Shown here: positions 143 through 58,509 of the stretch, in pieces
Layout of the letters: each line of letters starts with the position of its first letter
How positions within the stretch are numbered: position 1 is the stretch's first letter
Assembly: GCA_003131585.1 (NCBI GenBank)
Contig: PKVW01000024.1
Location: 41,073 to 105,072, forward strand
Direction of reading: 5' to 3'
Length of the DNA: 64,000 nucleotides
Origin: Acidobacteriaceae bacterium
GTDB lineage: Bacteria; Acidobacteriota; Terriglobia; Terriglobales; Acidobacteriaceae
Translations under genes and position numbers: made by a program
The notes under the pieces: model-generated
The model's input: only the letters and a program-made list of their open reading frames with translations
What the model was told of the DNA's origin: nothing
Database searches by the model: none

Positions 143-1132
143 ATGAATGGCGTCATCATCGTCGATAAGCCCGCCGGGTTCACCTCTCACGACGTGGTCA
201 ACCGCATGCGCCATGTTCTGCAGCAGCGCTCCGTCGGCCATCTCGGCACGCTGGATCCTCTCGCCACCGGCGTGCTCCCGCTCGTCACCGGAGGTCTCAC
301 GCGCCTGGCGCAGTTCTACACCGCCTCGGAGAAAACCTACGAAGGCGTGATCCGCTTCGGCTTCGCCACCAATACGTATGACGCCGACGGCGAGCCGGTG
401 GGCGAGGCTGTCCCGGTCACTCTCAACCTCGATCCCATCCGGAAACTCGCTGCCGGATTTCTCGGCCTCATCGACCAGGTGCCGCCCCCGTTCTCCGCCA
501 AGAAAATCCACGGTGTCCCAGCCTACAAACTGGCGCGAAAACAACAGGAGGTAGTCCTCAAGCCGGTTCAAGTCGAGATCAAAGAATTCGTGATCCTCGC
601 AGTCGAGGGCGACCGCGCCCGCTTCCGGGCTCGCGTCGCTTCGGGAACCTACATGCGGGCGGTCGCGCACGAAATGGGCCAGCGTCTCGGTGCCGGAGCG
701 CATCTCGAATCTCTGCGCCGCACCGCCGTGGCCGAGTTCGAAATCAGCCACGCCCACACCCTCGAAGAAATCGAAGGTCAGATAAATAATTGTCATCCCC
801 ACCCCACAACAAATTGTCATCCCGACCGGAGCTTTCCGCTCCCGCAGGGAGCGGGAAGCGAAGTGGAGGGACCTGCTGTTTCCTTCCCGCCGCCCCGACC
901 GGTGCTTGAATCGCTCTTCGTGCATCCCCGCGAACTCTTGCCGCAGTTTCCTTCCGTCACCGCGGACGAGGCCACCGCCGCCCGCATCCGCAGCGGCCGC
1001 CCCGTCAACCTTCCCGAGCTCTCCCGCGCCCACCAGGTCAAAGTCTTCTACGGCCAAAGGGAACTGATCGCCATCGCCACCCGCGTAGCCGGAACCCTCT
1101 TCCATCCCAAAATCGTCTTCCTCAGCGAATAA
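143..1132 (+). CDS. truB: tRNA pseudouridine(55) synthase TruB, with an in-frame repeat-derived insertion
   Basis: MNGVIIVDKPAGFTSHDVVNRMRHVL and GHLGTLDPLATGVLPLVTG are canonical TruB motifs; full-length ORF. Confidence 0.95.
   Translation: MNGVIIVDKPAGFTSHDVVNRMRHVLQQRSVGHLGTLDPLATGVLPLVTGGLTRLAQFYTASEKTYEGVIRFGFATNTYDADGEPVGEAVPVTLNLDPIRKLAAGFLGLIDQVPPPFSAKKIHGVPAYKLARKQQEVVLKPVQVEIKEFVILAVEGDRARFRARVASGTYMRAVAHEMGQRLGAGAHLESLRRTAVAEFEISHAHTLEEIEGQINNCHPHPTTNCHPDRSFPLPQGAGSEVEGPAVSFPPPRPVLESLFVHPRELLPQFPSVTADEATAARIRSGRPVNLPELSRAHQVKVFYGQRELIAIATRVAGTLFHPKIVFLSE
787..885. repeat. Palindromic intergenic-type repeat element located inside the truB reading frame
   Basis: Two aattgtcatccc copies, then hairpin GCTTTCCGCTCCC-gca-GGGAGCGGGAAGC (831-859; one wobble mismatch) and aagtggagggacctgc tail. 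Confidence 0.75.
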
Positions 1133-1835: not shown

Positions 1836-2045
1836 TATTGCTAACGCCCCAATAGGAGCGAATCAGCGCCAAAGTTTAGGCATGACAAGCCTCCCAGTCA
1901 ATCCGCATTCACCTGGTCTTCAGGTAGAAACAGTATATTGTTTCGATGCCATGGCGCATGAGTGCCCAGGCCAGACAACCCAACTGTGGTGTAGCCTTCT
2001 CTTGAAACCTTTAGAGTGGCTTAGAAGCGAGGAGGCATCGGAACT

Positions 2046-3263
2046 GTGAATTACGGAGCTCTCTTTCGATCCGCGTTGATAGCGCTGCTCAGAAACAAGA
2101 TGCGAAGCGTTCTGACAGTTCTGGGGATCACTATCGGGATTGCCGCAGTGATTTGTGTCGTGGCTATCGGCAATGCTGGTCAGGCGCGAGTCCAGCAACA
2201 ACTGAACAACCTCGGAGACAACTTCGTCTGGATTGAAGCGGGCGGCCGGGCGGTCAACGGCGTCCGCACCGGCACACATGACACGAAAACTTTGGTTATG
2301 GCCGATGCCGTCGCGATCAAGAACCAGATTTCTCTCATCAAGGGCGTTTCGCCGAATGTGGATGATCCAGTCCAGGTCGTCTACGGTAATCAGAATTGGC
2401 ACACTTCCTACCGCGGCGTTTCGCCCGAATATTTCGAGATAAAGCGCTGGTACGTGGATCAGGGGGCCCTATTCTCACAGGATGATACGGATCGAGCAGC
2501 CGATGTTTGCGTGATTGGGCGAACCGTTCGGGAGCAACTCTTCGGCGTCGAAAATCCAGTTGGTAAAGTCATCCGAGTGAGTGGCCTTCCGTGCAAGGTG
2601 GTGGCTACGCTTCATCCCAAGGGACTCTCCCTTTCCGGGCAAGACCAGGATGACACGATCATCCTGCCCTACACTACGGCTCAGAAGAAGATCAAGGGCA
2701 TTACGTGGTTGGACGACATTCTGTGTTCAGCGGTATCACCGGACGTAGTTAAGATGGCCGGACAGGAGGCAACCGCTGTGCTCCGCGATCGACACCACCT
2801 GCGTCCTGAAGAAGAGGACGACTTTAATATTCGCAATCCTGAGGACATCATTCAGGCCCAGCTTGACGCCAGCAAGACCCTGACAATCCTGCTGATTGCA
2901 ATCGCCTCCGTTTCCCTGATCGTGGGGGGAATAGGGATCATGAACGTAATGCTTGTTTCCGTAACCGAGCGTACGCGAGAAATCGGAGTCCGAGTGGCCG
3001 TCGGAGCTACCGAAGCGGCCATTCAGCTTCAGTTCTTGGGAGAATCGATCATGCTCAGCCTCGTGGGAGGTGCCGCGGGAGTGCTCTTTGGAGTCTTCGG
3101 GTCCTATTTGGTCGGACAGACGCTGGGTTGGCCTATGGAGATGTCTATTGAAGCCATCGTGGTGGCCGCATTGTTCTCGGTCGCCGTCGGAGTGTTCTTC
3201 GGATACTACCCGGCGCGTAAAGCTTCTCGACTCGATCCGATCGAAGCGCTGCGATACGAGTAA
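2046..3263 (+). CDS. MacB-type ABC transporter permease (FtsX-like)
   Basis: ALLRNKMRSVLTVLGITIGIAAVI N-terminus; GGIGIMNVMLVSVTERTREIGVRVAVGA; PARKASRLDPIEALRYE C-terminus. Confidence 0.92.
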   Translation: MNYGALFRSALIALLRNKMRSVLTVLGITIGIAAVICVVAIGNAGQARVQQQLNNLGDNFVWIEAGGRAVNGVRTGTHDTKTLVMADAVAIKNQISLIKGVSPNVDDPVQVVYGNQNWHTSYRGVSPEYFEIKRWYVDQGALFSQDDTDRAADVCVIGRTVREQLFGVENPVGKVIRVSGLPCKVVATLHPKGLSLSGQDQDDTIILPYTTAQKKIKGITWLDDILCSAVSPDVVKMAGQEATAVLRDRHHLRPEEEDDFNIRNPEDIIQAQLDASKTLTILLIAIASVSLIVGGIGIMNVMLVSVTERTREIGVRVAVGATEAAIQLQFLGESIMLSLVGGAAGVLFGVFGSYLVGQTLGWPMEMSIEAIVVAALFSVAVGVFFGYYPARKASRLDPIEALRYE

Positions 3264-3293: not shown

Positions 3294-4619
3294 ATGACAA
3301 AACGCAAGTGGCTCATCTTAGCGGTCGTTGTGGTCGTGGCTGGATTGTTCGTCGCTTTGGGGCTGAACCGTGACACTCAAGCCCAGCATTTTACCGCAAA
3401 GGTGGAACGAGGTGACATCCATGACGTTGTGGAAGCCACTGGAACCATTAACTCGGTAATCACCGTCCAAGTGGGATCGCAGGTGTCCGGGTCCATCGCA
3501 AAACTTAATGCCGACTTCAATTCCCGCGTGCATAAGGGGGACATCGTCGCGCTGATTGATCCTGCATTGTTCAAGGGCGCCCTGCTGCAGGCAACCGCTG
3601 ATTTGAAAAATTCAGAGGCCAACTTGGAAGCGGCCCGAGCCAACCTCAAAAAAGCGAAAGCCGCTTTGGTACAGACTAAGGCTGACTATGATCGTACCGT
3701 CGGCCTGGCCAAAGATGGCGTCATGAGCAAGCAGCAACTGGACCTTGCCAAGTCGAACTATGACGCAGCCACCGCATCCGTGGACGCCGCAGCAGCCAAC
3801 ATCACGCAAGCCGAGGCCCAAATCAGTCAGAAAGATGCCGCGGTCGCAGTCGCCCAAACCAATCTCGATTACACCGTGATTCGCTCTCCGATCGATGGCA
3901 CTGTGGTGGCGCGAAATGTGGATGTGGGGCAAACCGTGGCCGCGTCATTGCAGGCGCCAACCATTTTTACAATCGCGCAGGATCTCACGAAGATGTGGGT
4001 GTATGCCAAGACTGACGAGTCGGACGTAGACAACATTAAAGTCGGCAAGGTGGTCACATTCAAAGTGGATGCCCTCCCCAAGCAGACGTTTCAGGGAGTT
4101 GTCAGCCAGATCCGGATGAACCCGACGACGGTGCAAAGCGTCGTCACGTACGACACCATCATCGAATTTGCGAACCCTGAGTTAAAACTGTTCCCCGGCA
4201 TGACGGCATACGTGACCATTCCCGTGGCTACGGCGCAGAACGCATTGAAACTGCCAAACACTGCCCTTCGGTACAAACCTCCGATGGCACCCGAGGAGAT
4301 TTTAACCTTGTACAAGCGCTATGGGATCGAGGCAGTCCAGGGCGAACAAGGCGCCGATCACTCTGCCGCGGGGGAGGGTGGGATGCCTGCTAGCACTGGC
4401 GCGCAGAATCTGCCCTGCGCACCCAAAGCGGAGACTGCCGTCGTTTGGAAGCTTCATCCAGATAAAACGATGGAACCGGTGAAGGTTTCTCTTGGAATCA
4501 CAGACCATGCGTACACGGAGGTTAGTTCAGTTCTCAAAGGTGAACTGAAGGAAGGAGACGACATGATCATTCGATCAATAGCTCCTAAAACCCAAGCTCT
4601 AGGAGGTTTACGGCGCTAG
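3294..4619 (+). CDS. HlyD/MacA-like periplasmic adaptor subunit
   Basis: Single N-terminal TM; VEATGTINSVITVQVGSQVSGSIAKL; coiled-coil hairpin; NLDYTVIRSPIDGTVVARNVDVGQTVAAS. Confidence 0.92.
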   Translation: MTKRKWLILAVVVVVAGLFVALGLNRDTQAQHFTAKVERGDIHDVVEATGTINSVITVQVGSQVSGSIAKLNADFNSRVHKGDIVALIDPALFKGALLQATADLKNSEANLEAARANLKKAKAALVQTKADYDRTVGLAKDGVMSKQQLDLAKSNYDAATASVDAAAANITQAEAQISQKDAAVAVAQTNLDYTVIRSPIDGTVVARNVDVGQTVAASLQAPTIFTIAQDLTKMWVYAKTDESDVDNIKVGKVVTFKVDALPKQTFQGVVSQIRMNPTTVQSVVTYDTIIEFANPELKLFPGMTAYVTIPVATAQNALKLPNTALRYKPPMAPEEILTLYKRYGIEAVQGEQGADHSAAGEGGMPASTGAQNLPCAPKAETAVVWKLHPDKTMEPVKVSLGITDHAYTEVSSVLKGELKEGDDMIIRSIAPKTQALGGLRR

Positions 4620-4640: not shown

Positions 4641-5429
4641 ATGGAAACGATACCCGCTGTCAACCAACTCGAAAGCACGGCAGCCGTCTCTGCTAGCGCC
4701 GTCATTCGTGTCGAAGATGCGCACAAGTATTACGAACTGGGAGAGACTCGGGTCCACGCCCTCCGTGGAGTGAACATGGAAATTCACCGGGGTGAATTCG
4801 TAGCGATCATGGGGGCGAGCGGCAGCGGCAAATCAACCTTCATGAACATTCTTGGCTGTCTCGACCGCCTCAGCTCCGGACGATACTTGCTTGAAGAGAT
4901 CGATGTTTCCGAGCACAACAAGAAGGCCCTGGCACTCATTCGGAACGAAAAAATTGGTTTTGTTTTCCAGGGCTTCAATCTCCTGGCTCGGACGACGGCG
5001 CTTGAAAATACGGAGCTACCGACGCTATACGCGAAAATCGATAAAACAGAGCGCCGAAAACGTGCCGCCGATGCCTTGACAATGGTTGGTCTTGTCGACC
5101 GGGCACGGCATTTTCCGTCGCAGATGTCCGGAGGACAGCAACAACGGGTCGCCATAGCACGAGCGCTGGTGAATCGTCCTTCCATCCTGTTGGCAGACGA
5201 GCCCACCGGCAATCTCGACAGCCGTACTTCAGTCGAGATCATGGATATCTTCCAGAACCTAAACGACAAGGGATTAACTATCGTACTGGTCACTCACGAG
5301 CACGACATCGCACAGTTTGCCAGGCGTGTGCTGGTCTTCCGGGATGGGAAAATTCGCAAGGACGATCCGGTTCTCGGTCGACCCCGAGCCAGTGAGGTGC
5401 TGAAGACCTTGCCGACGCTCGAAGACTGA
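4641..5429 (+). CDS. MacB/LolD-type ABC transporter ATP-binding protein
   Basis: Walker A GASGSGKST, signature SGGQQQRVAIARAL, Walker B ILLADEPTGNLD. Confidence 0.95.
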   Translation: METIPAVNQLESTAAVSASAVIRVEDAHKYYELGETRVHALRGVNMEIHRGEFVAIMGASGSGKSTFMNILGCLDRLSSGRYLLEEIDVSEHNKKALALIRNEKIGFVFQGFNLLARTTALENTELPTLYAKIDKTERRKRAADALTMVGLVDRARHFPSQMSGGQQQRVAIARALVNRPSILLADEPTGNLDSRTSVEIMDIFQNLNDKGLTIVLVTHEHDIAQFARRVLVFRDGKIRKDDPVLGRPRASEVLKTLPTLED

Positions 5430-5812
5430 ACAAATTCGATTTCGTGCCCAATTGCTTCAATTTCCCCCGAGCTATTCCTGCCAGGAATCCTGCGATCCTG
5501 AAGAGCGGACCAAAGCGGCAGCTTGGCCAGACATCCATTTGCGGGAAGCGGGCGCGAGCCCGGTCCACGAAGTATGAGTTAGGGTTGACCGGCCGAACCT
5601 CGATACAGACGGTAAGGAGCATCGGGGAGTCGAGAAAATAGGGGGACACGGGAACGCTCCCCAGTTTTTCCGTCGGGATTGCAAGGTCCGATAAGAAGTA
5701 TTATGTTAAGTGATCGCCGCCCCTCCCTGAGCGCTTCCTCGGACCATCTCAGCGGGAGGAACCTTGCGGCTGCTGCCTAAGCTCCGCTTGACACGGCTGT
5801 TAGAAGCGCTGG

Positions 5813-19469: not shown

Positions 19470-19533
19470 GCTGCGCGTGCAACTCTACTAAAAACCTTTT
19501 GCCTTGGAAATATATCTCCGACGAGGCGGCAGC

Positions 19534-20175
19534 ATGAACGTCGCCCTCTATGCCCGCGTTTCCACCGACAAATGTGAGATCTGCGGCAAGAATCCCTCCT
19601 CGCACCACGAAGCCGGCGGACACCAGTTCCGCGGCCAGGATCCAGAAGTGCAGTTGCTGGAGCTGCGAGCCTGGTGCGTAGCCCAGAAGCACACCATCAT
19701 CCGCGAGTACGTGGACCGCGGCGTTTCCGGCACCAAAGCCTCCCGTCCCCAGCTCGATGAATTGATGGCGGATGCGACCAAGGGCTTGCGCGATATCCAG
19801 GCGGTCGCCGTCCTGCGCCTCGATCGTTTCGGTCGCAGCGTGCAGCACCTGCACAAGACCGTCGGCGACCTGCTCTCGGCCAAGGTGGATTTCGTTAGCG
19901 TCAAAGACAACTTCGATCTCACCACTCCCATGGGAAAGCTTTTGTTCGGCATCCTGGCGGTGTTCGCCGAGTTCGAGCGCAACGTCATCGCCGAGCGCAC
20001 CAAGGATGGCCTGAAGAAAGCCCGCACCGAGGGCCATATCCCGGGCCGCAAGATCGATCCGGTGAAAGGTCCTTCGAAGACGACGCTGTGGCGCCAGCAT
20101 GTCGGCGCCCGAGCCCTGGCGGCGGTCCTGGCCTGCGCCGTGATCATCGTGAGGCTCGGAAAGCTGCTCGGATGA
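19534..20175 (+). CDS. Serine recombinase (resolvase/invertase family) with Cys/His-rich insertion
   Basis: MNVALYARVSTDK...GQDPEVQLLELR; RLDRFGRS; FGILAVFAEFERNVIAERTKDGLKKAR. Confidence 0.88.
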   Translation: MNVALYARVSTDKCEICGKNPSSHHEAGGHQFRGQDPEVQLLELRAWCVAQKHTIIREYVDRGVSGTKASRPQLDELMADATKGLRDIQAVAVLRLDRFGRSVQHLHKTVGDLLSAKVDFVSVKDNFDLTTPMGKLLFGILAVFAEFERNVIAERTKDGLKKARTEGHIPGRKIDPVKGPSKTTLWRQHVGARALAAVLACAVIIVRLGKLLG

Positions 20176-46357: not shown

Positions 46358-49300
46358 ATGTCGTCCTACGCACTCAGCGAAGTCGAAGAAGCCCCGAGTT
46401 ACTCGGCGGACCAGGTAGAGGAAGCGCCCACGACGCAGCAATCTTCGGCTGCGCTCGATCAGGTGGCGCGTCCGCAGTCCCCTGCCCCGGTAGCGCCTGT
46501 GTCTCCGCGTCTTTCTCTCGGCCCGACTCCGCCCGCACCGCGTCCGGTCGCTGAAGGTTTAATCACCGAGCAAGAAGAACGCCGCGCAAGAATGCCGCTC
46601 ACGATCCAGCCCACGAGTGGAAGTCTAGAGAATCCGCATCCCGAACAAGTAGTCGCCACGCCGCGGCCGAATCGAACGTTGGCCGCGCCCGCGCAGCCGA
46701 ACGTCAACGTAGAGGAGCCGGGGGCCGTTCCCGTGCCTGTGGGTCCAAAATTCACAAACCCAGGCAAGGCTACGCCGCAAGAAGCCGCCTACGATCTTAG
46801 TTTCAGTGATCCCCTTCTGCGCCCTTATCGCGGTGCCGCTGAACTCTACCACGGAGTGAAGGACCTTCCGCCCGATCCCAGGAAACCTGGAACCTACCAG
46901 GAGCAAGCAGAACGAGGCACAACGGAGATTCTGAGAGGAGCGACGGATGTCGCAACCCCGGTGATGATCGCGGGGGCGGTCGCACAGCCGGAACTCGCCC
47001 TCCTCGCGGGTGCTGGCGCTGAGGCAGGAAGTTACGGCGCGGGAAAGCTGGCCGACGCGGTAAAAGCCTCACCCGACACCAAGGCACTGCTGCAAGAGGT
47101 CGGTGGCATCGCCGGAGGGTTTGCTGGCGGTTTTGCTCACGGCGGGTTGCGATCTGCGGCCAGTCCCGAAGACGCGCTCACCGATCTGCTGTGGAAGCGC
47201 GGCTACATCCGGGACGCCCAGCGCAACCCGGTCTCGTTCGCATCCGAAGCCGAGGCCCGGTATGCGGCACGAGAGATACTCCGCCAGAATCCACCAGGGA
47301 TAATCGACTCCCTACGTCAGAAAGGTGCTTACAAAAGAGCAGGCGCGGAACTGCCGCAGGTTTCTCCCGCAGAAGCCGCCAGACGAGCCTCCGCAACTGC
47401 CGAGTTCAACGCCCGCGCCCGAGCAGCAACCAGCCATGCCGACGATGTAGTGGCGGACATATCGAAGCTGACTCGCCCCCAACTCGCCGAATACATGGCG
47501 AAGTCGGCATCCCCGGACAAGCCTCTCGGCGATCCCGACGTAGCCAAAGCGATGTATGTAGCCGACCGCGAAGCCGCGCAGACACCGGCGCCCGCGCCGC
47601 CAGAAGCCCCCGTAGAAGCTCCCCGACCTTCACCCGCTCCAGCAGTCGCCCAGCCTCCCGGAGTCTCGCCTCAGGCCTTCACCTACGAGAATGCAAAAGC
47701 GGCCGTCGAAGACTTCTTAGACCAGCATGGGCGTGTGTCGCCGACCGTCCTCCAGCGCAACCTGAAACTGGGCTACGAGAATGCAAAGGCCGTTCTGAAT
47801 CGCATGGTTGGCGAGGGGGTGCTTCAGACCGATAGCAAGGGGATTGTCTTCACACGGCCCACAGAAACGCAAGCAGCAGCTATTCCTGAGTTCCGAGCGG
47901 ACGAAGTGGAAGAAGCCGCGCCTGCGGTAGAATCGAGGGGTGAAACTGCCCCAGCAGTATCGAACGCTCCCGCCGCGGCACTGGCCGCTGCCCGACCGAC
48001 AGGCCCAAGCGGAGGCACTGAATCAGTTGCTCGACCAAGCCCCGCCCCAACTCCTCAATCAGTTGCTCCAGCAAGTGCTCCGGAGGGTGAAAAAGAGTCT
48101 TCGTTCCAAAAAGGTGACTCCGTAACCCTTCCCGACGGCCGCTCGGGAGAAGTGAAGTACGTTTCTCCCCAAGGAAAATCTCCCGTGGTCACGGTCACGG
48201 TAGATGGCAAGACGGAAAGGTTTGTGGGTGCGAAGGAAGTTCAAGGGCTGAAGGCGGTAGAATCAGCCAATGCAGGCGCAGATAACGCTCCATCTGAACC
48301 GGAATCTGTCGCGGCGCAGACGAACCAGGCTCCGGCGTCTCCTGCTGCAAATGGTGAGCGCGTTACTGAAACAACTCCCGCCGAGAAGTACAAGTTCGGT
48401 TCCACCCAAGCCAATATCCCCGACGAATCTCCCGCCGCGAAAGCCCTCTCGACTGCCCGTGCGCGGATCTCGAAAGAAGACCTCGCCGGAGACGGCATCG
48501 ACGTAGGCGGCAACCACGTCACCGTCCGCTACGGGATCAAGGGTGAAGACGTTGAAGGAGTAAAGAAGTATCTCGCATCGCTCGCTCCGTTTGAAGCCTC
48601 TCTTGGACCAACGGAAACTTTCCCGCCCAGCGAACACTCCGACGGCGCCGCCGTGATCCACGCCCCCATCGTTGCCCCGGAGTTGCACCAGATCAACGCG
48701 GAACTGGAAAAGCACGGCGACTTCAGCGAGCCGAACTTCGACTACAAGCCGCACGCAACTGTCGCCTACGTGAAGCCGGAGAAAGCCAGCCGTTATGTGG
48801 GGATGAGTGTGACGTCCGGGCAGAAGTTCCCGGTGTCGGAAATTGCCATCACGGATAGACAAGGCAATCAGCAGGTGGTGAAGCTCGAAGGGAAAGGTGA
48901 GACGACCGCTGCGGCTCCGGCATTGCCACGCGACCTTGCAGGAGCAAAACCGCGTTACGGCTATCAGGACAAATTATTCCAGTTGCAGTTTGAAGACCCG
49001 CGCGATCTAGCCCTCTATACCGTGGCCCAGAGTACGCCGAACAAAGCGCACGGTCGCTACATGGAATGGCTGCGTGGACAATTCCCGAAACTCAGCGACG
49101 AAGACATTGTTCGTGGCGGTCGTTCCATCCGGGAACAAATCAAGCCTCTCGCTCGTGAAGGCAACCCAGCGGCCGGCCCACTCGTAATTCCGTCGCGGCA
49201 GGGGGAACCGGCATCGAAACCGGCCAGCGAGACACAAGCGCCACAAGCTGAGACGATTGCGGCCAAAGGTGAGACGAAGCCTGTCCGTGAATTTGCCGCA

Positions 49301-52300
49301 CATGAAGTCGAGGAAGCGCCAGCCGCAAAGAAGTCTCTCGCCCCCGAGCCAACGAAGCCCGAGCGCGAACGCCAGACCTTAGGGCTTCCGCCCGAACCGG
49401 GCCGCGTGGGAGAGATGAACATCCGCGACCTGAAAGTCGCGCCGAACAAATTCCAGTACAAACTCTCGACCGATGCCGAAGGCGTAGGCACGTTGCTCAA
49501 GGAAACGAAGGTCTGGAATCCCGATCTGGCCGGGATGGTCTCGGTGTGGCGCGATCTCTCCGACGGCAAGACCTACGTGGTGAATGGGCATCACCGCTAC
49601 GAACTGGCGAAGCGTTTGGGAGTGAAGACTCTGGTCGTCCGGCATATCGTTGCTCCGACCGCCAACGCCGCCCGCGCCATCGGAGCGGAACAAAACATTG
49701 CAGACGGGCGCGGCACGGCTCTCGACGCGGCGAAGTTCTTCCGCGATTCCGCCATTACCCCCGCTGACTTGAAAGAGAAGGGCATCTCGCTCGGCGAAGC
49801 CACGGTCGCCAAGGGAGTCGCACTGGCAAATCTCAGCGAACCCATCTTCAACCAGGTGGTGCAGGGTGATCTCACGCAAGGCCGCGCCGTCGTCATCGGA
49901 GAAGCAACCAGCGACCCGGCAGAACAAAAAGCGGTTCTCGATTTAGTCGAACGCAAAGAGCGTTCAGGAAAGAAAGTCTCCGACGACACACTCTCGGAAT
50001 TGATTCGCCTGGTGAAAGGCTCCGGGCAAACGACCGAGACCACCGCTGATCTTTTCGGAACCCAGCAGATCAACCGCTCGCTCGCCTTAGAGAAGGCGGA
50101 GATCTCCGCCCACATCAAACAGCAATTGGCGAAAGATAAGAAACTCTTCGGCTTCGTCTCGAAGGGCGACCGGGCCTCGGAACTGGAACGCGGCGGCAAC
50201 AAGATTGACGTGGAGAAATCGAAACAACTTTCAACTGGCGCAGCGCAAGCGGAAGAAGTCTATAATCGCCTGAGCGCGCGCGGAGGGCCAATTGCAAACA
50301 TCCTCGATGAATCCGCCCGGCAACTCGCCGACGGCGACAACGCCGCAAGCGTCAAATCCGAAGCCTACAGCCGCATCCGCGCCGAAGTATCCAAAACTCT
50401 CGGCGGCGGAGAAGGAAGCGGTACTGAACGACATGAAGGAACACCAGAGCCTCCAGAAGGCGTTACACACTCCCCCAAGCCCGACGATTCAGTAGACCTC
50501 TTCTCCGGTGCCCAGCCCGTCTTCCACGAACCGCTTCCACTGTCTGCGCGCACCGCCAAAGACATCAACTTTGACCTGATCGAGACCAGGGCTGGGATCG
50601 CGCCATATTTGCGCGTGAATGACGCTGCGGCAAAAGCCATCAGCCACTCGCTGGGACACGCTTTTCTCGGTGTAAACATCGACAAGGCCAGTGTCGGGCG
50701 GGCGTCCGCGGCGCTGCGAAGCGCTGCCTCATCGGCGGAGGCGAATAAGGTTGACGCAAAAGCAATCCGTCAGCTAAGAGGGCTGGCGGATGCGCTCGAT
50801 GAGGCACTCGACCGCGACCCGAACGCGGGCGTCAATCTGGTACGCCAAGGCCCTAGAGAAATTGGGACGGCTCACGAAGAACTCATCCACTCCGCGCAAC
50901 GCCGCGCCGGAAAAGGAAATATCGGGTTCGGCGTACCGTGGCAAGAGAGTCTAAAAATGCCCGCGTTTGCCGAACTCGGGGCCAATTCCATCGTTCCGCA
51001 GTTGCGCGCCGCTGGGCTTCCGGCCCCCGCGTCCACAATCGTGGCTGAGGGCATCGTGGACATCATGCGCGGTGAGGCAGCGCTTGAGGGCGTCAGCATC
51101 ACTGACGCCTTGGAAGCCGCCAAGGTATATTTTGAATCCGCGTTGGCACACTATGGCATCGAACACCTGAACGAACTACAGGCGATTCAGGATTATGCTA
51201 ACGACACCGAGAGAGAAACCAATGTCACCCATCACCCAGAAGTTCTGGCCATCCGGCGAGCCGGGGAAGCGGCTCTCGCCCGAACAATTGCTCGAGGGAC
51301 TGGAAAAGCATTGGGACGAACTGGAGCAACAGTACAAAGCGAAGCCCAGCTCGGAACTGAAGAACGAAATCGTGCACCTGGTGCAAAGGATAGCGGCCCA
51401 CCGGACGACACAGGGAAAGCCGATAAAGGACCTTCTTCCACGACTAAAGGCCCTGCCTACTCCACCCAGCCCATCGGCCTCACCGACGAAGAGTTAGAGG
51501 ACTGGTCGAAATCGAGAGGCTTCCGCGTCGAACCGGCGGGAGAACAACTCGACATCTTCGGCGGCAATCAATCCGTGATGCGCGTCTTCCGCGCCGGACG
51601 CGGCGGCAAAGAGCAAAAGGGCCTCGTCTATCAGAGTCAGCTCGATCAACTGAGTCAACCCAAGCCCGAACCGACAGAACCGTTCGCGCTCACCGGCGGC
51701 GAAACTCGCGAGCAGCAGCCCACGCTCTTTGGCGCGGGCGACCTCGGAGAGATCGTCGGCAATCCCAAAGCAGAGCGCGGCATTCAACTTCCTTCGCAGC
51801 AGCGTGACCGAGGGACTTCGCTATTTAAGCCGGAACACCGGAAGGAAGACCGCGAGTCTCTTCTCACCGGCGAATCCGGCACCCTCACCCCTTCCCTCTC
51901 CGCCGCCAAAGCCGTCTACGCGAAATTCATCAACCGCATCATCGACCGGAACCTCGACCTGGGCGACAAATACAAGCGAGTCGCCGAGCACGACCCCGCC
52001 ATCGCAACGATGCTGAAAGAGAAAGACAACGCCCCGCGCTACTTCCACGCCAAAGCGGAATCGAACGTGGAGCAGGTGGCCAAGGGACTGAATGAGTCGC
52101 AAGTCCGGCTCGCCGCGATGATGGCCGACTCCGACTCCCGAGAATTCTTAGAGGAGAATCACCCGGAGCAGTTCCAGGAAGCGCAGGACGATCCGGCTGT
52201 GATGGACGCCGTGAAGCAGTTCAAGCAGTACCAGGACGAGTTGGCGGCGATCCGCATCTCGCTCGGCTGGCACGTTCGCCGCGACCTCTCGACGCTTGAA

Positions 52301-54418
52301 GATGAAAACGGAGACTGGTCGGTGGTGGACCGCGACGGCAACGAAGTGGAGACCTTCGGCAAATCGCAAAAAGACGCACAGGAATACGCCGAAGAAGTGG
52401 GCGAAGTGCTCGACCATCTGAAGCGCACCTACCCCGAGCACAAGCGCGAACCGCTGATGGGACGCACCGACGAAGGCCCCTCGCTGGGCGCATCTTACGG
52501 TGGAATCAAAGCCCCCCGCCCCGACAAGAAACAGCGCATCGCCACCGCACAATACTTCTACGAGCACGGCGCGAAGGACTTCTCCGGCTACGTCAAGAGC
52601 TTCACCCAGGCCTACCACGCCGCGCTGAACCAGAAGATTTACGACTCGCTCACCGACGAAGCAACGAAGTGGAAGGAAGGCACCGCCCAGCCGCCGCAGA
52701 TCGAGTACCGGGGCCAGACCTACTACTCTCCCGACGTCGCCAAGTCGATGAAGCTGGCGAAGCCGGAGAACCGCCCCAAGAAGATTCTCGAATACCGCGC
52801 TTACGACCCCGCCAAAGACGACAAGGTGATGATCCGGGATTTCGAGAACGGCTGGAGCACGACGACCACCGGCAGGCCGGGGATCAGCGCCCTGGACCGC
52901 TACCTCGCGCCAAAAGACGTGGTGGACGCTTTAGAGCACTACGACATGACGCGGGGAGCGGAAGAGGGCAACTCCATCCGGCGCTTCTTCCAGGATCAGA
53001 TCGTGGGCTTGTTTGGCCCCAACATCCACGTCTTGAACATCATGCGGCGATTGGCTACGACGGTGGGAGCCGGAGCCTGGGACCCGCGCGTATGGCCCTA
53101 CTACCAGAGGCTTTTCTTCTCGAAGGAACTGCGGGAGCGCATGGCCGAAGGGCTGGCCGACGACGCCATCGACACGCTCTCGAAGTGGGGCACCTACACC
53201 AACACCAAAGATATTGGCAGCCTGCACGACTACGTTCTCGGCAATATGGACCCGAGGAATTGGGCGCGCTGGACCATCGGCAAGTTCTCGAAAGGCGTTT
53301 TGTTCGATCCGAAGTTCCTCAGAGGCTTCGGCGGGCTCGACCAAAAAGCCCGTGTGCTGGCCTACGACTTCCTGCATGCCCGCGCCGGGATGAACGAAGA
53401 GGAAGCCGCCAAGAACGTCGAGGACGGCTTCGGCAACTACAACAAAGCCAACTGGACCGAGCGCATGAAACGTTGGGGGCGGGCACTTCTCTTCCCCGGC
53501 TGGGACTTCTCCAGCTTGAAATGGTTCCTGCGTCACCCCATCAAGACGGCGCTCCCTGCGCTGGTTGTTATGGGCGCAAACCTCGCGCTCAACAAAGCGG
53601 GCAAGAACCGCGACTCCGACAAATACGACTACAGCTATCTGCACTACGGCGACCGCAAGTACCGCACGGGGTTAATCACCGAGCCGATGGCGCTGCATCT
53701 GGTCGAACCTATCCTTGCGGCCGGACGAGCCGCACTCGAAGGCGGCGACACGCGAGACATTGCAGGTGCGGCAGGACAAGGCATGCTGCGCGGCGGCGGC
53801 GGACTGGCGGGCGATCTGCGTCCGGATATCGGCGTTGCTACTGAACTACTCTCAAACCGTCAGTACTTAGGCGGAGAAAAAGAAATCTGGCGACCGGAAG
53901 ATGCGAACATTCCCGGTACGGTGCTGCCTACGCGTAAGCTAGAAAAGATGCTGGCCTTCTCCGTGGTCAAAGCCCTGCCCGCCGTGAGCCGCTTCCTTGA
54001 TACGAGTTTCGAGAGCCTAGACCGGGCCACTGTCGCGGGCAGCGTCATCGGCGTCACGAATTACAAATCCGGCGCGGAAGAAAGATTAAAAGCGAACGAA
54101 GCGAAGGCGATGGGATATTCACAGACCTTGAGTACGCTGGCGGAGCGCGAACCGGACGCGGCTGAGAGATTCGTCCAGGAACCGGCGAAGGCTCCGTATC
54201 TGATGTTCAACAAGGACCTTGCGGAGCTCGGGAAAGACCTCAAGAGTATCGACACCGAAATGGAGCGGGTGAAGATCGCCGAGATCCCGTATGCTGACCG
54301 GAAGCGGGCGCTCGAAGACCTCAGAACCTCACGCTCGCAACTCTTGCAATCGGCGGACGCGCTCGATGAGGAACTCACGACCGCGAAGCTGCAGATGAAG
54401 AAGGCGGCGGGTCAGTGA
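46358..54418 (+). CDS. Giant polyvalent ejection-type protein (2686 aa)
   Basis: Gly-rich hydrophobic segment near N-terminus; FtsK-gamma-like wHTH, SH3-like, 2H-like and ParB-like segments; T7 gp16 position. Confidence 0.8.
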   Translation: MSSYALSEVEEAPSYSADQVEEAPTTQQSSAALDQVARPQSPAPVAPVSPRLSLGPTPPAPRPVAEGLITEQEERRARMPLTIQPTSGSLENPHPEQVVATPRPNRTLAAPAQPNVNVEEPGAVPVPVGPKFTNPGKATPQEAAYDLSFSDPLLRPYRGAAELYHGVKDLPPDPRKPGTYQEQAERGTTEILRGATDVATPVMIAGAVAQPELALLAGAGAEAGSYGAGKLADAVKASPDTKALLQEVGGIAGGFAGGFAHGGLRSAASPEDALTDLLWKRGYIRDAQRNPVSFASEAEARYAAREILRQNPPGIIDSLRQKGAYKRAGAELPQVSPAEAARRASATAEFNARARAATSHADDVVADISKLTRPQLAEYMAKSASPDKPLGDPDVAKAMYVADREAAQTPAPAPPEAPVEAPRPSPAPAVAQPPGVSPQAFTYENAKAAVEDFLDQHGRVSPTVLQRNLKLGYENAKAVLNRMVGEGVLQTDSKGIVFTRPTETQAAAIPEFRADEVEEAAPAVESRGETAPAVSNAPAAALAAARPTGPSGGTESVARPSPAPTPQSVAPASAPEGEKESSFQKGDSVTLPDGRSGEVKYVSPQGKSPVVTVTVDGKTERFVGAKEVQGLKAVESANAGADNAPSEPESVAAQTNQAPASPAANGERVTETTPAEKYKFGSTQANIPDESPAAKALSTARARISKEDLAGDGIDVGGNHVTVRYGIKGEDVEGVKKYLASLAPFEASLGPTETFPPSEHSDGAAVIHAPIVAPELHQINAELEKHGDFSEPNFDYKPHATVAYVKPEKASRYVGMSVTSGQKFPVSEIAITDRQGNQQVVKLEGKGETTAAAPALPRDLAGAKPRYGYQDKLFQLQFEDPRDLALYTVAQSTPNKAHGRYMEWLRGQFPKLSDEDIVRGGRSIREQIKPLAREGNPAAGPLVIPSRQGEPASKPASETQAPQAETIAAKGETKPVREFAAHEVEEAPAAKKSLAPEPTKPERERQTLGLPPEPGRVGEMNIRDLKVAPNKFQYKLSTDAEGVGTLLKETKVWNPDLAGMVSVWRDLSDGKTYVVNGHHRYELAKRLGVKTLVVRHIVAPTANAARAIGAEQNIADGRGTALDAAKFFRDSAITPADLKEKGISLGEATVAKGVALANLSEPIFNQVVQGDLTQGRAVVIGEATSDPAEQKAVLDLVERKERSGKKVSDDTLSELIRLVKGSGQTTETTADLFGTQQINRSLALEKAEISAHIKQQLAKDKKLFGFVSKGDRASELERGGNKIDVEKSKQLSTGAAQAEEVYNRLSARGGPIANILDESARQLADGDNAASVKSEAYSRIRAEVSKTLGGGEGSGTERHEGTPEPPEGVTHSPKPDDSVDLFSGAQPVFHEPLPLSARTAKDINFDLIETRAGIAPYLRVNDAAAKAISHSLGHAFLGVNIDKASVGRASAALRSAASSAEANKVDAKAIRQLRGLADALDEALDRDPNAGVNLVRQGPREIGTAHEELIHSAQRRAGKGNIGFGVPWQESLKMPAFAELGANSIVPQLRAAGLPAPASTIVAEGIVDIMRGEAALEGVSITDALEAAKVYFESALAHYGIEHLNELQAIQDYANDTERETNVTHHPEVLAIRRAGEAALARTIARGTGKALGRTGATVQSEAQLGTEERNRAPGAKDSGPPDDTGKADKGPSSTTKGPAYSTQPIGLTDEELEDWSKSRGFRVEPAGEQLDIFGGNQSVMRVFRAGRGGKEQKGLVYQSQLDQLSQPKPEPTEPFALTGGETREQQPTLFGAGDLGEIVGNPKAERGIQLPSQQRDRGTSLFKPEHRKEDRESLLTGESGTLTPSLSAAKAVYAKFINRIIDRNLDLGDKYKRVAEHDPAIATMLKEKDNAPRYFHAKAESNVEQVAKGLNESQVRLAAMMADSDSREFLEENHPEQFQEAQDDPAVMDAVKQFKQYQDELAAIRISLGWHVRRDLSTLEDENGDWSVVDRDGNEVETFGKSQKDAQEYAEEVGEVLDHLKRTYPEHKREPLMGRTDEGPSLGASYGGIKAPRPDKKQRIATAQYFYEHGAKDFSGYVKSFTQAYHAALNQKIYDSLTDEATKWKEGTAQPPQIEYRGQTYYSPDVAKSMKLAKPENRPKKILEYRAYDPAKDDKVMIRDFENGWSTTTTGRPGISALDRYLAPKDVVDALEHYDMTRGAEEGNSIRRFFQDQIVGLFGPNIHVLNIMRRLATTVGAGAWDPRVWPYYQRLFFSKELRERMAEGLADDAIDTLSKWGTYTNTKDIGSLHDYVLGNMDPRNWARWTIGKFSKGVLFDPKFLRGFGGLDQKARVLAYDFLHARAGMNEEEAAKNVEDGFGNYNKANWTERMKRWGRALLFPGWDFSSLKWFLRHPIKTALPALVVMGANLALNKAGKNRDSDKYDYSYLHYGDRKYRTGLITEPMALHLVEPILAAGRAALEGGDTRDIAGAAGQGMLRGGGGLAGDLRPDIGVATELLSNRQYLGGEKEIWRPEDANIPGTVLPTRKLEKMLAFSVVKALPAVSRFLDTSFESLDRATVAGSVIGVTNYKSGAEERLKANEAKAMGYSQTLSTLAEREPDAAERFVQEPAKAPYLMFNKDLAELGKDLKSIDTEMERVKIAEIPYADRKRALEDLRTSRSQLLQSADALDEELTTAKLQMKKAAGQ
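51222..51497 (+). CDS. Candidate overprinted ORF (91 aa) in +1 frame of the giant gene
   Basis: MSPITQKFWPSGEPGKRLSPEQLLEGLEKHWDELEQQYKAKPSSELKNEIVHLVQRIAAHRTTQGKPIKDLLPRLKAL; main frame is linker-like here. Confidence 0.4.
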   Translation: MSPITQKFWPSGEPGKRLSPEQLLEGLEKHWDELEQQYKAKPSSELKNEIVHLVQRIAAHRTTQGKPIKDLLPRLKALPTPPSPSASPTKS

Positions 54419-54780
54419 GCGCTTGGCGCGGGGCAGGGATAGGCGGCAGTAAATGCAGCACGGATACCCCGGACCTTCGATTCGTGCAGAATGGTCGGAT
54501 GCTCATCAAAGTACCTGATGACGACCTGTTTCAGCTCTCCCGCGCGAAAGCCGTCAGGCAGGCAAAAGGCTTGCCCATCGAGCGCATCTGCTACCCCTAC
54601 CACATAGCCGAGACTGGTGCTTGCATCGACGGCTCCTTGAGCGCGGGCGGCTACCGAATCGTTTGAAGATTGACTATCGTATGCGGTGAGATGGATTTTG
54701 AACTGGTAGCAATCGTCGTTGATGAAGGATTGCCCAAAGAGCGGAAGCGTGAGTAACGAGACCAGCAACCAGCGTTTCAT
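54412..54780 (-). CDS. Rap1a/Tai-like exported protein (T6SS amidase immunity family-like)
   Basis: Signal MKRWLLVSLLTLPLFGQ; C...LGYVVGVADALDGQAFCLPDGFRAGELKQVVIRYFDEHPTILHESKVRGIRAAFTAAYPC; GGGGGAG upstream. Confidence 0.75.
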   Translation of the reverse strand: MKRWLLVSLLTLPLFGQSFINDDCYQFKIHLTAYDSQSSNDSVAARAQGAVDASTSLGYVVGVADALDGQAFCLPDGFRAGELKQVVIRYFDEHPTILHESKVRGIRAAFTAAYPCPAPSAH

Positions 54781-54870
54781 GGAACTCCCCCTTTTCCCGC
54801 CCAACAGGATGCTCTGCCTGACTACTTTTACGCAAGTGGACGGTGGACCAGGAGCAAAAACACCCTAGCT

Positions 54871-56250
54871 ATGAGCGCTTTTCCTCAACTCGATCCCTTC
54901 GCGCAAGCCCACGAAGACGGAAAGAAGGCCGTGGCCACCTTTCTGCCGAGCCTTGTCACGCCGAAGATGCCCCCGCAAGCACCGCCGAAAGCCTTGCCCC
55001 ACAGCGATCTTCGCGATGCCGTCCGAGCCATGAGTTTAGCGAATCACGTCGAGCAGATGTCGAGCCGCGTCGCCAACGGATTGCCGCCCAGCCCGCCCCA
55101 GCCCACGCCGGAAGAAACGTTCGGCAACCAGCTCGACGCCGTGCATACCCGCGCCATCGCCAGCGCCATTGCCGCGCATCCAGAAACCCAGAGAGCGCGC
55201 TTGATTTCCGAAGCCCACGACTCGGCCTCGAAGTGGATCATGTCGCACAACGGCAAGGTGATCGTTCACGGCAAGGTGGAGCTTGCCCACGATCCCAAAT
55301 CGGCGCAGACTCTAGCAGCCAAGATCGTCAACGGCACAGTGGAAGACCATGACGCAAGAGAAGAAGCGAAAGCAGAGTCGCTCGATAATCCTCGGGGCAC
55401 CCAAGGGGATGATCGTCAATCCGTTGGCAATGCCGGGGGGAACCGTACAGAAAGTCGGCAGCCGATACCTCCTGCTGCCACGGCACAAGAGCGTTCACCA
55501 ACCGCTGTTCGTCCCGGCGCTTCAGTCGGAACGTCTGATCCGCAAAGCGGCCGCGTCGTCACCCACTCCTCCGCTGATCTGGCACGGGCTCAAGCGACAG
55601 CTACCGCCCAAGCCCCGAAATTCCGCCGTCTGCTCGAAGCCGGAACCACAGGGGTAAAGGGGGCGAGAGTCGCCGGAGTCCGTTCGAAGAAAGAAGCCAG
55701 CCGCGCGCGGCAAAAAGCGCAGACCGAAGGCAAAGCCCCGAACACCCAGACCGATCTCCTCGCCGGGCGCATCGCCGTCGATTCCCCGGAAGCGAAAGAT
55801 CAAGTCGTTCAAAACCTGAAAGACCAGGCTCCGGTGATTGACGAATCCGACCGTTTCCAAAACGGCGATCCCGACTACGGATTCCGCTCTCACACCCTGC
55901 AGACACAAGTCTCTCCCGAGACCAGCGCGGAAGTGCAGGTCATTCCCCAAGACATCGACGACGTGGACGACACGACGCACCAGACCTATGAGCAGGGCCG
56001 CGAAGCGGAAGCGACGGGAAACGACGAGACCGCAGAGCAAGCGATGGCCGACAACAAATCGGCGCACGACGATGCGATGGACAAGTTCAACGCGCGCAAC
56101 GAATCCCGCAACCAACCGGGCAAGCAGGGCCGTTCCCAGAAGATCAAAGACATTCTCGCCGCCGCCGGAGTGAAGGGCGCGGGTGAGCCGATCAAACTCG
56201 GAGGACACTTCTTCCTCCCCATTCAGGACGATGCCGAAGAAGCCAGCTAA
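54871..56250 (+). CDS. Late protein with RelA/SpoT-like nucleotidyltransferase domain
   Basis: RSKKEASRARQKAQTEG...DLLAGRIAVDSPEAKDQVVQNL...GDPDYGFRSHTLQTQV...AEVQVIPQDI...THQTYEQGRE. Confidence 0.7.
   Translation: MSAFPQLDPFAQAHEDGKKAVATFLPSLVTPKMPPQAPPKALPHSDLRDAVRAMSLANHVEQMSSRVANGLPPSPPQPTPEETFGNQLDAVHTRAIASAIAAHPETQRARLISEAHDSASKWIMSHNGKVIVHGKVELAHDPKSAQTLAAKIVNGTVEDHDAREEAKAESLDNPRGTQGDDRQSVGNAGGNRTESRQPIPPAATAQERSPTAVRPGASVGTSDPQSGRVVTHSSADLARAQATATAQAPKFRRLLEAGTTGVKGARVAGVRSKKEASRARQKAQTEGKAPNTQTDLLAGRIAVDSPEAKDQVVQNLKDQAPVIDESDRFQNGDPDYGFRSHTLQTQVSPETSAEVQVIPQDIDDVDDTTHQTYEQGREAEATGNDETAEQAMADNKSAHDDAMDKFNARNESRNQPGKQGRSQKIKDILAAAGVKGAGEPIKLGGHFFLPIQDDAEEAS
55349..55657 (+). CDS. 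Candidate overprinted ORF (102 aa) in +1 frame
   Basis: MTQEKKRKQSRSIILGAPKGMIVNPLAMPGGTVQKVGSRYLLLPRHKSVHQPLFVPAL; main frame is low-complexity linker. Confidence 0.35.
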   Translation: MTQEKKRKQSRSIILGAPKGMIVNPLAMPGGTVQKVGSRYLLLPRHKSVHQPLFVPALQSERLIRKAAASSPTPPLIWHGLKRQLPPKPRNSAVCSKPEPQG

Positions 56251-56785
56251 GAAGTCTCAGCCGAAGAAGGCAGGCCCCAAGAAAAAGACTGGCCCCAAGG
56301 GTCCGCGCAAACAGCCGACCTGGACGCCGAAGGAACTGGCCTTCGTTGAGGCGTTCAAAGGCAATCAAAGCAAAGCCGCCAAAATCGCCTACCCGAAATC
56401 GAACAACCCTTCCGTGCTGGGCTCGGAGTTGATGGCGAAGCCGCACATCCGCGAAGCCTGCGAGAAGAAGCTGGCCGCGATGATCGACGAATCGGGCAAA
56501 CGCCTGGCGCGGGTGGTGGATATTGGGAGAAACGAAATCATCATGTTGAACGCCGACATCGCCCGAAAGGGCGACAGCGACTCAGCTCGCGTGGCGGCCT
56601 TGCGGGAACTGAAGGATATTTTCGGCCTCAGCGCCAAAAATGATCGAGACACAGACATGTTCGCCGGTTGGAGCGAAGAGGAACTTCGGGAGTTCGCCGA
56701 CACGGGATTTGTTCCGAAGTCAGTTGCAGCCCGAGTTTTATCGGGCCACGGCGCGCCTCCGGCTCAGCCAGATTCAGCGAAGTAA
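56231..56785 (+). CDS. Terminase small subunit with basic N-terminal tail
   Basis: MPKKPAKKSQPKKAGPKKKTGPKGPRKQPTWTPKELAFVEAFKGNQSKAAKIAYPKSNNPSVLGSELMAKPHIREACEKKL. Confidence 0.8.
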   Translation: MPKKPAKKSQPKKAGPKKKTGPKGPRKQPTWTPKELAFVEAFKGNQSKAAKIAYPKSNNPSVLGSELMAKPHIREACEKKLAAMIDESGKRLARVVDIGRNEIIMLNADIARKGDSDSARVAALRELKDIFGLSAKNDRDTDMFAGWSEEELREFADTGFVPKSVAARVLSGHGAPPAQPDSAK

Positions 56786-57440
56786 GCCTTCGCAAGAACT
56801 GGCGGAACGCGCTAGGGAAGCCACGCGTGACGCCTACGCTTGGGTCACTCAATACACCAAGACTTACAACGAGCAGTGGGTCAAACAAGGCAGATCGAGT
56901 CCTTACGAATCCTTCCCCTCGGCGGCGGAGCGCCCCGATTTTCCGGCCATCTTCGAACTGCTGGCTTCGAGCGAGCCGGTTTTATGGTTCGAGAAATCCC
57001 GCACTATGATGGAGTCCTGGGCCATCGTCGCCTATCTCACGATCAATGCGATGACCGTCGCCATGCGCGGCGTGGTGCTGCAGTGCCAGAAGGAAGAGAA
57101 AGCCCGTCAGCTCATCAAGTACGTCAAATGTTTGTATTCGCAGCAGCCGCAGTGGCTGCAGGGTGCTTACCCGTTATCGAAGCCGCTGCACTCGCAATCC
57201 GATCTCTCTTGCCAGTGGGCGGCTGGAGGCTATGTCGTCGGCATTCCCGGCGGAGCCGACCAGATGCGCTCCTATCACCCCTGGGCAGTGATGAGCGACG
57301 AGAGTTCGTTCCAGCCGGATGCGGGCGAGTGCTACAACGAATATCTTGCGGCGGGCCCCGAGAAAATCATTTTCAACTCCTCGGCCGGTCCCGGCTGGTT
57401 TGCCGACGCGCGTCACGACATCGTGGTGAATTGTGAGTAG
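56640..57440 (+). CDS. Terminase large subunit, ATPase half (true start probably further downstream)
   Basis: LWFEKSRTMMESWAIVAYL deviant Walker A; WAVMSDESSF Walker B; IIFNSSAGPGWF motif III. Confidence 0.7.
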   Translation: MIETQTCSPVGAKRNFGSSPTRDLFRSQLQPEFYRATARLRLSQIQRSKPSQELAERAREATRDAYAWVTQYTKTYNEQWVKQGRSSPYESFPSAAERPDFPAIFELLASSEPVLWFEKSRTMMESWAIVAYLTINAMTVAMRGVVLQCQKEEKARQLIKYVKCLYSQQPQWLQGAYPLSKPLHSQSDLSCQWAAGGYVVGIPGGADQMRSYHPWAVMSDESSFQPDAGECYNEYLAAGPEKIIFNSSAGPGWFADARHDIVVNCE

Positions 57441-58509
57441 CAAAGTCGCCGCAGCTCTGGAGCGGACCAAGAAGATGCCGCCGCAGACGCAGGTGGAGAT
57501 TGTGCGCGGGATTACGTTGCGCCGCACCAAGGGCGGCATCCCGGTGATTCGTCATCACTACTCCGCCGATCCCGCGCGCGATCCGGACATTAACCCGGAG
57601 TGGAAGCTGCAGGAGCGGCGCAAATATACCTCGCAGGCGTCATGGGATCGCGAGCAGGAAATTATAGACAACGCGGGCGGCGGCGAGCTGGTGTTGGCCG
57701 ACACCCTGGTCACGCACTGGAAGAAAATCGTCATCGAAGACCCGCGCTGGCAGCCCGATCCGAAGTGGAGAGTGGAAGCAGGGTTTGACCACGGACGCGC
57801 GAATCCCACGTCGATGGAACGGGTCTACTGCGACTACGAAGGCAACTTGTTTTTCTGCGGCGAATATTACCAGCCGGGGCGGGAAATCTGGGAGCACGCC
57901 ATTACGCTGAAACAGATGGCCGACATCCGCCGCATCTCGGTTTGTTATGCCGACCCATCGATCTTCCCGTTGAACGCCCAAGCCAACGTACCCACGCGAA
58001 AAGACGAGCGGGCGAAATCGCTGAACGAGATTTACGTAGAGAACGGCATCGAGATTTTTTCTCCCTTTCACGGCGACCACTCCGACATCAGCTTCGGAGA
58101 ACGTGTGTTGATGCACTGGCGCGACCTCGAACACCGGCAGCCGACATTGAAAATCGTGTGTCGCAACTTCTCCGAGAGTCCGCAGCCCGGCCTGCACAAC
58201 TGGGATTGCCCGAACCTGCTGTGGGAGATGATGCGGATGCGGCGGGTGAAGCTGACGGCACAGCAACTCCTGAGCCGGAACACCTCCGAAGCCATTGTCC
58301 AGAAAGACAACCACGCACTCGATGCCGGTAAGTATCTAGTCATGTCGCACCCCGAGCCAGCCTACAAGAGCGCCAAAGAGACGGCCGCCGAAGCCGTCGC
58401 GCCACTGGTGGAACAAGGCGATTTGACCTCGGCCAACATTCGCTACGCCCAGACGCTTTCCCGTCTCGACCAATCAAAACGCAAGCCGATCAGGATCGGC
58501 CGCCACTAA
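57433..58509 (+). CDS. Terminase large subunit, nuclease half
   Basis: WRVEAGFDHGRANPTSMERVYCDYEGNLFFCGEYY...DNHALDAGKYLVMS RNase-H-like nuclease layout; GTG start overlaps previous stop. Confidence 0.75.
   Translation: MSSKVAAALERTKKMPPQTQVEIVRGITLRRTKGGIPVIRHHYSADPARDPDINPEWKLQERRKYTSQASWDREQEIIDNAGGGELVLADTLVTHWKKIVIEDPRWQPDPKWRVEAGFDHGRANPTSMERVYCDYEGNLFFCGEYYQPGREIWEHAITLKQMADIRRISVCYADPSIFPLNAQANVPTRKDERAKSLNEIYVENGIEIFSPFHGDHSDISFGERVLMHWRDLEHRQPTLKIVCRNFSESPQPGLHNWDCPNLLWEMMRMRRVKLTAQQLLSRNTSEAIVQKDNHALDAGKYLVMSHPEPAYKSAKETAAEAVAPLVEQGDLTSANIRYAQTLSRLDQSKRKPIRIGRH

Follow-up and report, generated by a model that had tools for sequence, protein, structure and literature searches.

A prophage of an Acidobacteriaceae bacterium carries, in a variable slot of its late region, a small antisense gene whose product matches the Rap1a/Tai family in both sequence and fold, and its host lacks the T6SS and Tae4 partners associated with that family. 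The reading we prefer, tentatively, is that this product is a periplasmic plug on wall-cutting enzymes that reach the cell from outside, most likely from competing phages. The gene, referred to here as the cargo gene, lies at 54412-54780 on the minus strand of the window, by which we mean the whole 64,000-nucleotide stretch of DNA that was analyzed.

ORF calling and reading of the sequence agree on a 122-aa ORF with an ATG start. A GGGGGAG leader resembling a ribosome-binding site lies 4 nt 5' of the ATG (54785-54791, minus strand), as the sequence-only reading had proposed, and every motif quoted in that reading is present letter for letter. The translated protein begins MKRWLLVSLLTLPLFGQS, and these approximately 18 residues (54727-54780, minus strand) form a predicted Sec signal peptide, recognized by inspection and flagged by a simple hydrophobicity test; the signal peptide claimed earlier is thus supported at the level of prediction, and the protein is probably exported to the periplasm. 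All called neighbors of the cargo gene are on the plus strand and it alone is on the minus strand, overlapping by 7 nt (54412-54418) the stop of a 2686-aa gene (46358-54418, plus strand). Both its orientation relative to the late genes and this overlap had been described correctly. Third-codon GC is 0.60 in the cargo gene versus roughly 0.65-0.83 in most phage genes measured, a difference that would fit later arrival and is no proof of it.

Membership in the Rap1a family is far beyond chance. The Pfam model Rap1a (PF18602) scores the cargo protein at 61.3 bits (cutoff 27.7; E 1.3e-16), and PHROG 3870, a family of unknown function, matches at 3e-9. Searched as a single sequence against the sequences of the PDB, the protein finds Rap1a (4.5e-4) and the Tai4 protein of Agrobacterium tumefaciens, AtTai4 (5.6e-3). 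A profile built from 25 members (the cargo protein and its relatives, all of them individual matches to PF18602) recovers AtTai4 (4e-11) and Rap1a (8e-10), the type of comparison that had been suggested as a check on the fold. An AlphaFold model (m3dd94d680a67) has a mean pLDDT of 79.5; the value exceeds 90 for most of residues 61-120, and the N-terminal part is weak. When this model was compared with the PDB by Foldseek, seven chains of AtTai4 and Rap1a were recovered with probability 1.0; the next match reached 0.09, and nothing besides these two proteins exceeded 0.25 among the matches listed. Together, these results bear out the proposed Rap1a/Tai family and fold.

The family match also refutes the idea that the cargo gene is a chance ORF or an annotation artefact, which we consider almost inconceivable. 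Two observations would fit such an artefact: a scan for promoters and terminators at the gene, covering consensus types and not other promoter types, returned no match, and the sole identical viral contig does not count as an independent copy. Against it stand the family score and the fold match, together with the signal peptide and a ribosome-binding site.

Within the family, the cysteines place the protein. Cys73 (codon 54562-54564, minus strand) and Cys116 (codon 54433-54435, minus strand) align with Cys78 and Cys122 of Rap1a and with Cys80 and Cys124 of AtTai4, the residues that form disulfides in those two structures (PMC3852654, PMC6277958). Since only this Rap1a-type pair fits the cargo protein, its sequence assigns it to the exported five-helix fold named Tai4a in PMC3852654 and not to the other Tai4/Rap2a fold. 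The motif layout given by the sequence-only reading stands, except that the first cysteine it listed is probably Cys24, which is not among the cysteines conserved in the family; those are Cys73 and Cys116.

Rap1a of Serratia marcescens (PDB 3zfi, 4bi8) is the immunity protein of the T6SS endopeptidase Ssp1. The cargo protein resembles it in Pfam family, in fold (TM 0.72-0.74 by target), in having a predicted signal peptide and in having the same cysteine pair at a spacing of 43-44 residues. Unlike Rap1a, it is encoded by a prophage, with no cognate effector nearby and in a host without a T6SS, and it differs at Ssp1-contact positions (Gln84 to Arg79, Glu90 to Gln85, Glu94 to Arg89, and Arg119 to Ala113). 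In the alignment the cargo protein shares not one of the 12 residues with which Rap1a contacts Ssp1; the three N-terminal positions were compared by ungapped extension. AtTai4 (6ije, 6ijf) is the best match by both fold (E 3.5e-4, probability 1.0) and profile (4e-11); it shares the cysteine pair and likewise has no equivalent of Gln84. Because AtTai4 also lacks Rap1a's Ssp1 contacts, at the positions that can be compared, their loss is not decisive. In contrast to the cargo protein, AtTai4 is paired with a Tae4. In a tree of 41 proteins Rap1a and AtTai4 form a well-supported pair that excludes the cargo protein, the phage proteins cluster with moderate support, and the cargo protein sits on a long branch, without a supported neighbor. 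It falls in no supported clade and therefore its function is unreadable from a close relative.

The surrounding DNA is a prophage, as the sequence-only reading had it. Host-type genes occupy the window to the left of about 9 kb (for example, an HlyD-type transporter at 3294-4619) and resume past its end, at roughly 68-69 kb when counted from the start of the window. Between these flanks lie a resolvase-type recombinase (19504-20175, plus strand; PF00239, E 7.6e-40) and, just past the window end, a glucosaminidase endolysin (L102:5706-6191; PF01832, E 1e-18). An IMG/VR viral contig is 99.99% identical to the prophage over 16 kb; both may derive from one sample, and the contig was not counted as an independent copy. 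A Chaperonin 10 (GroES, PF00166) domain protein is also encoded amid the phage genes (34192-34755, plus strand).

The cargo gene sits between a giant late gene and the terminase genes. The giant gene (46358-54418), the left wall of the slot by its domain and PHROG matches, contains stretches resembling 2'-5' RNA ligase, FtsK-gamma and ParB, together with a long match to PHROG 21 (labeled portal), and recalls polyvalent phage proteins. To the right, a terminase small subunit (56183-56785, plus strand; profile matches) forms the wall of the slot in relatives. It is followed by two overlapping ORFs of 266 and 358 aa (56640-57440 and 57433-58509, plus strand) that we read as the terminase large subunit on the basis of a weak PHROG match to the second; both are conserved in about 40 viral contigs, and the overlapping two-ORF arrangement is kept in relatives. 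Besides the Rap1a-type gene, the slot of the window holds a 459-aa gene on the plus strand (54871-56250). Its C-terminal part is weakly RelA/SpoT-like (E 9.5e-4 for that part, below the cutoff), and it is possibly a nucleotide-alarmone enzyme or toxin-like domain borne by the phage. Homologs of this gene precede the terminase genes in two other loci (L127 and L129).

To compare the slot between phages, related phages were located via the terminase-like protein and inspected at the point where the giant gene meets the gene of the terminase small subunit. Gene calls in these loci came from a simple script and not from a trained gene finder, and homology to the giant gene of the window is established for some, not all, of the large genes upstream. 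Five loci (L113, L133, L136, L143 and L145) have an empty slot, with flanking genes at most 63 bp apart. In a close relative, L112, whose terminase-like protein is 82% identical to that of the window, the slot is a 299-bp gap holding an antisense 96-aa ORF (1866-2156, minus strand) that has hydrophobic stretches, is unrelated to the cargo gene, and overlaps the giant gene stop with its own stop in the same way as in the window. In L161 an antisense ORF of 104 aa (5341-5655, minus strand) that has two hydrophobic segments lies just ahead of the terminase gene, and the slot of L131, where the upstream gene is cut off, holds a probable antisense 138-aa ORF with hydrophobic segments (157-573, minus strand). 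These ORFs of L112, L161 and probably L131 are of the membrane-protein kind and are candidate envelope cargo. Two further loci were set aside: L127 was dropped as an empty site, as the DNA upstream of the homolog of the gene at 54871 reads like a transposon end and the giant gene aligns in part, and an antisense ORF in L134 was not counted as cargo given its poor codon composition. The Rap1a-type gene itself is absent from all other loci of this phage group that were examined. Because the slot is empty or differently filled in related phages, the sequence-only proposal that the cargo gene is a moron, set in its own orientation, is well supported.

The same reading had assigned the protein to immunity against T6SS amidases. 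No Tae4 (PF14113) and no T6SS sheath gene (VipB/TssC) were found in the host genome, which led us to reject a cognate T6SS for this host. Among 101 relatives, the host included, PF18602 occurs in 19 and Tae4 in a single genome, and none has both. Sheath genes are present in 17 of the 101 and show no association with PF18602 (3/19 versus 14/82, p = 1). The alphaproteobacteria give a similar picture, with PF18602 in 63 and Tae4 in 2 of 246 genomes; in the one genome that has both, the genes are about 800 kb apart. Across 40 Rap1a-bearing records (the identical viral contig and 39 others) Tae4 was not detected. Divergent amidases can escape PF14113, and fragments are common among the viral contigs, which makes these counts strong hints rather than proof. 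The claim of T6SS-amidase immunity is accordingly not supported, in that the family hardly ever co-occurs with Tae4.

A version of that claim in which the gene is an orphan, its Tai4a-type product neutralizing Tae4-family amidases injected into the lysogen by neighboring cells, strikes us as unlikely. In its favor, the cargo protein is closest among solved structures to genuine Tae4 immunity proteins, immunity genes without a partner have been described, one of them resembling Tai4 (PMC7400221), and the sheath genes of the 17 relatives place attackers near the lineage. Against this weigh the rarity of Tae4 in both groups of genomes, the lack of association between PF18602 and the sheath, the position of the cargo protein outside the Rap1a/AtTai4 clade and the absence of sheath and Tae4 from the host, although an orphan gene does not need a T6SS in its carrier. 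Moreover, the only Tae4 gene among the 101 relatives, which encodes an SH3-like plus Tae4 protein (genome G028, L104:8640-9302), adjoins not PF18602 but a gene for an exported 220-aa protein unrelated to Rap1a (L104:9287-9949). This protein, encoded directly after the Tae4 gene, is a candidate for a new family of Tae4 immunity proteins.

The restraint of the phage's own exit enzyme, also raised in the sequence-only reading, fares worse. A factor that holds back the phage's own wall enzyme until exit, and so times lysis, would be phage-encoded and periplasmic, as the cargo protein probably is given its signal-peptide-like N-terminus. The endolysin found is a glucosaminidase, however, and the proposal is weakened because Rap1a plugs cysteine peptidases of the NlpC/P60 kind, to which this enzyme does not belong. 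Those large phage proteins that were scanned gave no matches to NlpC/P60, CHAP or amidase models, and the cargo gene is on the strand opposite to the late genes. We judge a role in lysis timing very improbable.

Relatives of the cargo protein (PHROG 3870) are encoded on some 45 further viral contigs, several of which nearly duplicate each other. Like the cargo protein they are putatively exported, phage-encoded members of the Rap1a family, and in most of them the equivalents of Cys73 and Cys116 are the sole cysteine pair. Their genes mostly run in the same direction as the small phage genes around them, in contrast to the antisense late-region cargo of the window. Named carriers are Phage DSL-LC04, two Microcystis phages and Cronobacter phage ENT47670. 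The last of these has an unannotated copy (L046:3985-4327) antisense between two head genes, with signal peptide and body in different frames of the record; no relative of this gene was found in the E. coli genomes and plasmids searched. The Phage DSL-LC04 protein (OR003939.1, WJZ48091.1) bears the product name 'Tai4 (type VI amidase)', which confuses the inhibitor with the enzyme. Literature searches for phage-encoded Rap1a or Tai4 gave no relevant paper.

Bacterial chromosomes are a further reservoir. The host lineages have many chromosomal PF18602 genes outside this phage setting, and many bacterial copies have an additional cysteine pair. Common ancestry with the host's chromosomal copies was considered and rejected: a second PF18602 gene of the host (C24, L003) falls elsewhere in the tree, as do most of the relatives' copies, none of which adjoins genes of this phage.

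How, then, might the moron act? The protein would be exported to the periplasm, held by a disulfide between Cys73 and Cys116, and would form a helical bundle of the Rap1a type, probably dimeric like Rap1a and AtTai4 themselves. Its action would most likely be that of Rap1a, with a loop-helix surface that covers the active site of some wall-cutting enzyme. The target would most likely come from outside, brought by a competing phage entering the lysogen, and the gene would then shield both the cell and its prophage against superinfection or against lysis from without. Inhibition of an outside wall enzyme is the best-supported mechanism because every characterized protein of the fold that we found acts in this way, and competing phages are a likelier source than T6SS attackers because phages often carry the family and Tae4 is almost never present. 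A precedent for the proposed role is Sp of phage T4, which modulates lysozyme during superinfection and so keeps peptidoglycan from being degraded (PMC11436027); the likeness is an analogy of proposed function only, in that both would guard the wall of the cell carrying them from an enzyme of an incoming phage. Against the plug count the failure to identify a partner enzyme, the loss of all 12 Ssp1-contact residues, the lack of a supported clade, the missing promoter match and the many chromosomal PF18602 genes of the host lineages.

Some other role in the periplasm comes close in likelihood to inhibition of an outside enzyme. The fold may have been reused as a periplasmic domain that inhibits no hydrolase and serves another purpose, such as envelope stress or the binding of a phage or host envelope protein, a possibility we take seriously without favoring it. 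PF18602 is common in genomes without Tae4 and in several kinds of phage, the Ssp1-contact residues are not kept, and the additional cysteine pair of many bacterial copies is missing from the window protein and most phage proteins. Given the many chromosomal copies in the host lineages that lie outside this phage context, the general role of the family may also be a different one. Such reuse is opposed by the record of the fold itself, since all characterized proteins with exactly this fold that came to light inhibit hydrolases (PMC3852654, PMC6277958) and the structural search brings up no further protein. We retain, tentatively, the plug on outside wall enzymes.

The Rap1a/Tai immunity label, given to many bacterial and phage genes, overstates what is known because almost no sampled carrier has the amidase that it implies. 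Phages often carry the family with no named function, and this prophage provides an example in which it is a swappable cargo. A broader proposal, which we put forward as speculative and on balance doubtful, is that Rap1a-fold proteins are widespread, unrecognized periplasmic shields of phages against the wall enzymes of their rivals, that T6SS immunity is one offshoot of a family that chiefly serves some other role, and that in this phage group the Rap1a-type protein is one of several interchangeable envelope cargoes of an antisense slot. The question of whether Rap1a-fold proteins guard the wall of an infected cell against other phages has thereby been made testable.
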